From Aureimonas ureilytica (GTDB lineage: Bacteria; Pseudomonadota; Alphaproteobacteria; Rhizobiales; Rhizobiaceae): a stretch of DNA of 64,000 bases. Made by a program: the position numbers and the translations under genes. Location of the stretch: assembly GCF_001475935.1 (NCBI RefSeq), contig NZ_LDQA01000015.1:62001-126000 (forward strand). Reading direction: 5' to 3'. Every line of letters starts with the position of its first letter. The stretch's first letter is position 1. Shown here piece by piece: positions 47,810 to 49,887 of the stretch. The notes under the pieces are model-generated. The model worked only from the letters and a program-made list of their open reading frames with translations, was not told where the DNA came from and searched no databases.

Positions 47810-49887
47810 TCAAACCGTGCCGGCGCGGCCGGCGATGGCATCGGCGAAATCGCGCGCCTTGAAGGGCTCGAGATCGTCCACGCCTTCGCCGACACCCACG
47901 AAGAAGACCGGCAGCTTATGCTTGGCGGCGATGGCGACCAGAATGCCGCCGCGCGCCGTACCATCGAGCTTGGTCATGACGAGGCCGTTGACGCCCGCCA
48001 CATTGCGGAAAATCTCGACCTGATTGAGCGCGTTCTGGCCCGTCGTCGCGTCCAGCGTCTGGAGCACGGTGTGCGGCGAGTCGGGGTCGCGCTTCTGGAG
48101 AACACGCACGATCTTGGCGAGCTCGTCCATCAGCTCGGCGCGGTTCTGGAGCCGGCCGGCGGTGTCGATGATGAGAACGTCCGACCCGTTGGCGACCGCC
48201 TCGTCATAGGCCTCGAAGGCGAGGCCCGCCGCATCGGCGCCGATCTGCCGGGCGACGACGGTGGAGCCGGTGCGCTCGCCCCAGATTTTCAACTGCTCGA
48301 CGGCGGCGGCGCGGAACGTGTCGCCCGCGCCCAGCGTGACCTGCAGGCCGCCGCGCGTCAGCTTGGCGGCGAGCTTGCCGATGGTCGTGGTCTTGCCCGT
48401 GCCGTTGACGCCGACCACGAGAATAACGTGCGGCTTCACTTCGAGGTCGAGTTCGAGGGGCTTGGCGACAGGCGCCAGCGCGCGCTCCACCTCGTCGGCC
48501 AGGATCTGGCGCACGGCCTCGCCCGAGATTTCCTTGCCGAAGCGCCCGTCCGACAGACGATCCGTAATGCGCATCGCCGTCTCGACGCCGAGATCGGCCT
48601 GGATCAGCACGTCCTCGAATTCCTGAAGCGTTTCTTCGTCCAGCTTGCGCTTGGTAAAGAGCGCGGTGATCTGGCCGGACAACTGGTTGGAGGAGCGTGC
48701 AAGACCTTCGCGCAGGCGCTGGAAGAAGGGCTTTCGCACCTCCGGCGCGGTCTGTTCGGCCCGTTCGCGCTCGCGCAGCGCCCAGCCTTCGCCATCGGTC
48801 GGCTGGCGCAGAGGGGAAAGCGGCGGCGCGACGAGGCCGGGCAGGGCGCCCGCCGCCGCCGGCAGGGCGACATCGGCGCGGTCCGGTGCGTCGGAGCCGA
48901 GCGCGGAGGACGTCGCCGTCTCGCTGGGTTCCTCGGGCGGCAGCGGCGCGTCGAGCCAGGCGAACTCGTCGCGCTCGCTCGTGTCTTCGGCGGCCGGAGC
49001 TAGGACCGGCGCGGCATCATGGATCGGCTCGGCCGGATCGACGGGCAGACGCGCCTCGGCGAGACTGCCGCCATCGCCCGCGACGATCGCGGCTTCCGCC
49101 GGGGCGAGGGGCGTGTCGGAGGCAGGCGCATCGTCCGCTTCGTCCTCCGCCGGCTCCGGCGCGTCCAGCCAGGAGAAGTCGGCCTCCGGCTCGGCCTCGG
49201 ACGGGCGGGCCTCGTCCAGGAAGGCGAGGTCGTCGCTCTTGTCCTCAGCGCGGGGCTCAGGTTCGACAGGGGCGGCAAAGGTGGTTTCCACCGGCGTCGG
49301 CGTGGGAGCCAATGCGACGGGCGCGTCGGTCGGCGGTGTGGCGGGTGCGACGGAATCCTGCGTCAGGGGCGCGCGCGATTCGGGCGCGCGCTCTTGTTCG
49401 ACGGGCCAGACAGTTTGAGCGGGCTCGACGTGCACGGCTTCTGCGGGGGAAGCGTCCACCGGCGAGGGGTTCGGAGCCCGCGAGACGGGCTCGTCGGCGG
49501 GCGCGAAGGGGCGCTCGAAACTCTCATCCACCTGCGGGCCGCGCGGTTCGGGCGCGATCCCCGCGTCAGGGGCGAGATGAACCGGCGCGGGTTGCGCCGG
49601 CTCCGGCTCAATTACGGAGTTTTTTTTTCAGCCGCGACGCCGTCCGCGTCTTCGCCGCTCTTCAGGGGGATGATGCCGCCTTCGTCCGGCGTCTGGACGG
49701 AGGCCCCGGCCTCGGTGTCGGTGTCGGTCGATGCGGCGGCGGGCTGGTGAATCTCGGGCGCGCTGGAATCGGGCCGGGCGGCCGTCGTGTCCTGCGTGCG
49801 CGCAAGGCCGCCTTCGTGCTGCGTGCGGTCCTCTTCCTTCGCTCCGAAGGAAAAGAGGCGGCGGAAAAAGCCCTTGTTCTCGGCCAT
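47810..49887 (-). CDS. ftsY: signal recognition particle receptor FtsY, split by a -1 frameshift
   Basis: FtsY docks SRP-ribosome complexes at the inner membrane. The N-terminal amphipathic targeting helix (MAENKGFFRRLFSFGAKEED) starts at 49887 and its frame stops at 49612. The rest, in the -1 frame, continues from about 49621: a Glu/Ala/Pro-rich acidic region to about residue 380, an N domain (KPFFQRLREGLARSSNQL) and the G domain with P-loop GVNGTGKTTT (about 490), DTAGR and TKLDGTARGG. A -1 shift, or one extra A, gives a continuous 692-residue protein. Either the A9 run is slippery or one A is missing from the sequence. An internal GTG at 49531 has no good ribosome binding site. Confidence 0.9.
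49579..49627 (-). promoter_or_regulatory. candidate -1 frameshift site in ftsY (A9 run plus hairpin)
   Basis: In the zero frame the codons are GAA AAA AAA ACT CCG TAA, so the heptamer A-AAA-AAA (49627-49621) is in the slippery register. A 10-bp stem with one G-T wobble (arms 49594-49603 and 49579-49588, 5-base loop) lies about 17 bases downstream. After a -1 slip the next codons are AAC TCC GTA, in phase with the FtsY NG domain. The spacing is longer than in classic frameshift sites; the dnaX-like sequence is the key sign. Confidence 0.5.

Follow-up and report, generated by a model that had tools for sequence, protein, structure and literature searches.

In dnaX of Escherichia coli, two products are made from one gene by -1 ribosomal frameshifting on an A-rich heptamer lying in register, and at sites of this type the spacer to the downstream stem is usually shorter than 16 nt. 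According to the part covered here of a review that also mentions the E. coli case, runs of nine A's or T's give efficient slippage in bacteria in vivo, and dnaX of Thermus thermophilus shows transcriptional slippage on a run of nine, with early stops in both other frames (PMC5009743). The same part of the review treats spa13 of Shigella type III secretion, a plasmid accessory gene in which slippage after a short 5' ORF adds a C-terminal extension needed for function, and the IS630-type transposase of Roseiflexus, in which slippage requires a nascent-RNA stem-loop that abuts a T5C5 tract (PMC5009743). Furthermore, in the AT-rich, reduced genomes of the symbionts Blochmannia and Buchnera, essential genes with frameshifts at poly(A)/poly(T) tracts are thought to be rescued by slippage, and earlier work cited in the part of the source covered gives about 30% full-length transcripts (PMC3017870).

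The ftsY locus analyzed here, in which the reading frame changes at a run of nine A's (A9), resembles dnaX of T. thermophilus in the run of nine, the early stops in both other frames, the two tRNA-Lys species and the two products predicted from one essential gene (PMC5009743, part covered). However, it is another gene, its short product has a stand-alone family, and slippage would be needed for the essential long product, whereas in T. thermophilus a single frame encodes the long product and the short one arises by slippage. As in spa13, slippage after a short 5' ORF would provide the C-terminal part needed for function, but ftsY is a chromosomal housekeeping gene and the arrangement is found across a family (PMC5009743, part covered). 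A putative stem lies 5' of the slippery tract as in the Roseiflexus transposase described there, but it ends about 6-10 nt away from the run and is absent or short in many genes. The likeness to the Blochmannia and Buchnera genes lies in the apparent rescue of an essential gene, with the difference that GC-rich genomes keep a rare A9 here, family-wide and unchanged (PMC3017870, part covered). The open-access titles and abstract starts listed yielded no description of slippage or programmed frameshifting for ftsY or the SRP receptor, including Aurantimonas and Aureimonas. In the part of PMC3017870 covered ftsY occurs only as a search threshold, it is absent from the main text of a survey of conserved frame transitions (PMC3711429), and the part of the review PMC5009743 covered has no mention of it.

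The ftsY locus

The window, i.e., the whole stretch of 64,000 nucleotides that was analyzed, belongs to a 183-contig draft genome of 5.01 Mb, which contains a single ftsY and one further SRP54 protein, presumably ffh. A frame of 91 codons starts with the ATG at 49887 of the minus strand and has the tail GAA AAA AAA ACT CCG TAA (stop codon at 49612-49614), and the SRP54_N and SRP54 GTPase domains of ftsY follow in the -1 frame, which is open from the A9 run to 47810 (Table 1). The NCBIfam ftsY equivalog TIGR00064 is matched at 309.3 bits with a cut-off of 260.7, and thus the N and G domains (NG) of FtsY are recognized above curated cut-offs. Joined at the run, the predicted FtsY has 89 + 603 = 692 residues. 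The gene is essential in bacteria where tested, and we take its N-terminal helix, as in the FtsY literature, to have a membrane role. The original prediction had placed the junction at an A9 run followed by N and G domains in the -1 frame, and this was confirmed with a run of exactly nine A's; the A-AAA-AAA heptamer in zero-frame register and the downstream GC-rich hairpin, which it had also named, are both present as described.

Table 1. Features of the ftsY locus; positions are counted from the first nucleotide of the window.
Feature	Position	Strand	Remark
Zero-frame ORF, 91-residue short product (FtsY helix and small-protein domain)	49612..49887	-	TAA 5 nt past the run
FtsY membrane-targeting helix MAENKGFFRRLFSFG (presumed membrane role), start of the 91-codon frame	49843..49887	-	N-terminus conserved among aligned family members
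Small-protein domain, homologous to 74-86-residue stand-alone genes of relatives	49654..49848	-	profile A3, E 6e-28
5-bp stem GACGC/GCGTC, 7 nt ahead of the run	49636..49650	-	possible nascent-RNA stimulator, suggestive only
A9 slippery run, GAA AAA AAA AC (plus strand: nine T's)	49620..49628	-	0 changes at 9 sites, 35 genes
10-bp GC-rich hairpin, begins 16 nt past the run	49579..49603	-	not conserved
-1 frame: FtsY acidic linker, N domain, G domain; 603 residues past the junction	47810..49621	-	domain matches; NG dN/dS 0.06

Both parts of the locus are under purifying selection. For the short product, dN/dS is 0.18 in the helix and 0.22 in the small-protein part (17 pairs), and for FtsY NG it is 0.06 (17 pairs, with species shared between pairs). 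The linker is less constrained, with values of 0.61 for the first 30 codons past the run and 0.38 for its entire length (17 pairs sharing species). The genome encodes tRNA-Lys(UUU) as well as tRNA-Lys(CUU) (26 tRNA loci scanned out of 30 retrieved, among 54 matches).

Conservation of the A9 run

All 21 genomes available for the genus were searched, and a wider sample was drawn from the best 80 named relatives and from a family search of 394 genomes, 50 of which had a match. Within the genus, 17 of 21 genomes carry the A9 at the ftsY junction, and the frame relation to NG, readable in 16 of these 17, is -1 in all 16. In the remaining genome (G020) a contig end cuts ftsY; its register, its short ORF of 90 residues and the open -1 frame past the run agree with the others. 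Frameshifted ftsY genes with A9 are also present in Aurantimonas, Jiella, Fulvimarina, Mangrovicella and related genera. In a midpoint-rooted tree of 62 FtsY NG sequences, 50 rows form the clade of the family (Aurantimonadaceae), and 35 of these 50, with one gene per genome, share run, register and frame offset, which is the outcome that the original prediction had named as support in its check on relatives.

Run length is nine in these 35 genes except for one A10 (Fulvimarina manganoxydans) and one A11 (G180), the latter with two bases ahead of the run turned to A and an unaltered frame; none is shorter, and a homopolymer of at least nine A's therefore stands at the frame junction in 35/35 frameshifted rows. 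By parsimony on the tree, 0 changes were counted at all nine A sites, so that the first and the last A, which are not part of the heptamer, vary no more than the middle seven. Of the 51 other sites within 30 nt of the run (median 8, maximum 16 changes), 50 are variable, the lone invariant one being a C at position -3 from the run. The C just past the run is nearly invariant, and as the sites adjoining the run are the least changed (1 to 3), the wider context may matter as well. The frame offset and this conservation can be read directly from the sequences, as can the early stops, the selection on both parts and the stand-alone homologues.

The presence of the frameshift requires 7 changes on the tree, 5 of them forced by well supported branches; shuffled labels gave a mean of 20 changes, and 0/500 shuffles were as low as 7. 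As several in-frame lineages branch early on the midpoint-rooted tree, a history of one gain and several losses is likely. Uniqueness of the run within a genome carries less information. A9/T9 occurs once in the 5.01 Mb of the window genome, at ftsY, and the ftsY run is the sole A9 in 9 of the 17 A9 genomes of the genus, beside which 16 further runs of A9 or longer were looked at. This proves little, since base composition alone predicts about one per genome by our own estimate, and rarity as a proof of avoidance was dropped for this reason.

Probable transcriptional slippage and alternative explanations

Past the run, both frames that do not encode FtsY are closed early. A zero-frame stop within 8 codons is present in 31 of 35 genes, where more distal parts of this frame predict 9%, and the stop lies at different positions in different clades; the third frame, which is entered only after loss of one A or gain of two, has a stop within 8 codons in 28/35 genes (7% expected). 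A mixed transcript pool accounts for early stops in both frames, whereas a ribosomal -1 shift needs the zero-frame stop only. With a probability of about 0.72, we assume that in this Aureimonas, as in most of the Aurantimonadaceae sampled, ftsY gives two products via programmed transcriptional slippage. RNA polymerase would copy the A9 faithfully in some transcripts, and zero-frame reading would give a short protein, composed of the FtsY membrane helix and the small-protein domain, before an immediate stop. In other transcripts the polymerase would add one A, or drop two, which would lead into the NG frame and to full-length FtsY, 692 residues in this case. Both products would be used, FtsY for the delivery of membrane proteins and the small protein for a separate task. 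We infer the transcriptional level of the slip, its ratio and the task of the small protein; the invariant outer two A's and the early closure of the third frame fit slippage of the transcript, and by the likeness to T. thermophilus dnaX this appears to be the best supported mechanism.

The original prediction had put a dnaX-type -1 ribosomal frameshift on A AAA AAA first, by which shifted ribosomes would make full-length FtsY and unshifted ones the short product, and had offered transcript slippage as the alternative. We now regard the ribosomal shift as unlikely. It is true that the heptamer is whole and in the exact zero-frame register in every frameshifted gene, as is the A-rich heptamer of the two-product gene dnaX in E. 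coli, and this counts against the slippage reading. A ribosomal shift would also be in line with the 45 nt downstream of the run, which fold slightly more strongly than shuffles (mean z -0.57, p 0.02, n 31), and with a downstream stem excess of 0.77 bp over shuffles (p 0.03, n 35), both values being uncorrected for kinship. However, a strong downstream stem of at least 8 bp is found in only 5/35 genes (the window, A. ureilytica and three others), which does not amount to a conserved structure, and the downstream hairpin was therefore rejected as a general stimulator; in the window it follows after a spacer of 16 nt, which is above the usual length. A Shine-Dalgarno-like stimulator upstream showed no excess over shuffles (p 0.24, n 35). 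In contrast to E. coli dnaX, neither Shine-Dalgarno nor conserved stem stimulators were found in ftsY, and its second codon is AAA, not AAG. Furthermore, the heptamer has no need for the outer two A's, yet both never change, and a ribosomal shift has no need for early third-frame stops, yet they are present.

FtsY NG could also be made by internal initiation past the run, without any frameshift and with the N-terminal helix unattached. GTG, ATG or TTG codons do exist in the NG frame past the run, and FtsY shortened at its N-terminus is functional in E. coli, but the nearest of these codons is 20 to 234 codons past the run, at no conserved place (31 genes; ribosome sites judged by eye), and the frozen A9 would be left without explanation, which makes this possibility very improbable. 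An assembly error might be suspected in a 183-contig draft, as homopolymers are error-prone, and the gene might alternatively be decaying. Both are practically ruled out, since run and offset recur in 35 genomes, among them the single-contig genomes G003, G007 and G243, and since dN/dS is 0.06 for NG.

Transcriptional slippage as the preferred reading has to account for some observations that do not fit easily. Run length alone leaves the invariant C at -3 and the nearly invariant C past the run without explanation, the linker past the run is weakly constrained, and there are exceptions (A. fodinaquatilis, J. flava, G012, G011 and G020). An upstream stem could act as a nascent-RNA stimulator, although it is not universal and the evidence is suggestive only. 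In 22 of 35 genes, a stem of at least 5 bp leaves a spacer of 4-10 nt to the run, and for this spacer, which was chosen after viewing the sequences, stems are 1.5 bp longer than in shuffles (p 2e-5). In a clade-weighted scan the best upstream stems were found at spacer 6-10 (4.46 against a mean of 3.04, sd 0.54, top of 126 windows), whereas a second measure in the same scan places another site above it. Covariation consists of one compensatory pair in 11 Aureimonas sequences, the other four pairs never varying, and the folding of the 34 nt upstream is not stronger than that of shuffles (mean z -0.30, p 0.11, n 31). For the folding analyses, Jiella flava, with ftsY in frame 0, was omitted from the mean of the 32 A9-bearing genes, which gives n 31.

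A single-copy housekeeping gene thus appears to be slippage-dependent throughout a family of bacteria whose genomes are GC-rich and of ordinary size, and this would weaken the view of slippage as mainly an oddity of insertion elements, plasmids or symbionts. In practice, annotations of these genomes may list ftsY as a broken gene.

The small-protein family and the possible history of the fusion

Residues 14-78 of the short product match profile A3, to which stand-alone proteins of other genera, 74-86 residues long, also belong. The length of the short product varies between 46 and 117 residues across species (91 in the window). Up to E 1, neither the short product nor two of three stand-alone members had a Pfam or NCBIfam match, and the third had one Pfam match at chance level only (E 0.24); in the order the profile is uncommon, with matches in 4 of 397 genomes, among them the window genome and a Jiella. 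The members are small and acidic with the core ...SPDPD.H.EA.A...TDSEAGA...EGGI.PL (L150 1504-1752 (-), L223 2971-3216 (+) and others; further loci are L149, L151-L154, L171-L177, L179 and L220-L222). The locus points to an unnamed small-protein family linked to the membrane-targeting machinery. The short zero-frame product is probably functional and not waste, and because stand-alone homologues exist in relatives, the site probably makes two functional proteins. The original prediction had assumed a short peptide and a fraction of full-length FtsY as a control of the receptor; the recoding site does specify the short peptide, but it probably does more than limit FtsY.

Among the 47 tree rows for which both traits are known, the stand-alone gene is absent in 33/34 frameshifted rows and present in 11/13 in-frame rows, the latter side being biased since in-frame genomes outside the genus mostly entered the census by matching the small-protein profile. 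For the genus, where the search was complete, a stand-alone copy is present in 3 of 4 in-frame genomes, compared with 2 of 17 with the ftsY A9. An independent-pairs test gave p 0.25 with only 4 pairs on supported branches. As exceptions, G011 has both the shift and a stand-alone gene, G012 and J. flava lack both, G020, which is not in the tree, has two further copies besides the one in ftsY, and A. fodinaquatilis keeps the shift with a short product of 46 residues that is missing the motif and has no stand-alone copy.

Several related arrangements bear on the origin of the fusion. In two genomes of genus g73 (G092 and G184; L182 (-), L183 (+)) the small gene is a separate ORF that ends 26 and 25 nt before the start of ftsY, and in G102 of genus g83 (L180 (-)) the small-gene segment lies inside ftsY, in frame; both are possible intermediate states. 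In the in-frame clade of the genus, which probably lost the shift, two separate copies retain an FtsY-like helix and a third one a trace of it. The stand-alone copies of A. altamirensis (G014) and G005 start with MAKRSLLNRIFSFG, an FtsY-like helix, and in the rest of their sequence they closely resemble the frameshifted short product of G007; therefore, they probably derive from a frameshifted ftsY. The dN/dS between these two copies is 0.09, and the trace in the A. frigidaquae copy is IERLHSFG. An uncultured Aurantimonas (L049) has kept the motif with ftsY in frame and no run at the junction. In Jiella flava (L050) the A9 is kept, ftsY reads on in frame 0 and the motif is mostly lost, so that slippage there would truncate FtsY and not complete it.

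It is possible, although we put this forward tentatively and with some doubt, that slippage arose by fusion of the small gene with the adjacent ftsY and was undone when the small protein regained its own gene. Slippage might then serve as a regular splitter by which the SRP receptor and a membrane-tethered, perhaps stress-related small protein are produced in a proportion that is either fixed or dependent on conditions; the two would share the helix and be co-dosed at RNA polymerase. Since the natural states range from a neighbor gene through in-frame and slippage fusions to a separate gene, it can be tested how recoding arises and is lost.

A stress role of the small protein is a guess with partial support from its gene neighborhoods, nine of which were analyzed. 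Within about 3 kb of the stand-alone gene, a manganese catalase, a DUF892 or a DUF2383 ferritin-like protein is encoded in G005, G015 and G020, and ORFs of the same kinds are found in G014. MarR-like ORFs are present in the neighborhoods of G015 and G396 by our own reading of the sequence. G208, G011, G067, G240 and G126 showed no catalase, ferritin-like or MarR-like pattern.

In G020, contigs C66 and C109 (L221, L222) carry near-copies of the small gene, and in each case a HAD-type hydrolase comes next. In L220, L221 and L226, the stand-alone small gene is adjoined by a conserved protein of about 100 residues (MGTT.L.AQFE.RREAEMT.ERLVQEHG), the G396 copy of which had no Pfam match. The acidic domain of ftsY contains long CCAGAG-type repeats in Nitratireductor pacificus (L111) and in G032 (L025); the frame seems to be offset across the repeat in the former and an N stretch is located there in the latter, which perhaps reflects miscounting of the repeats.
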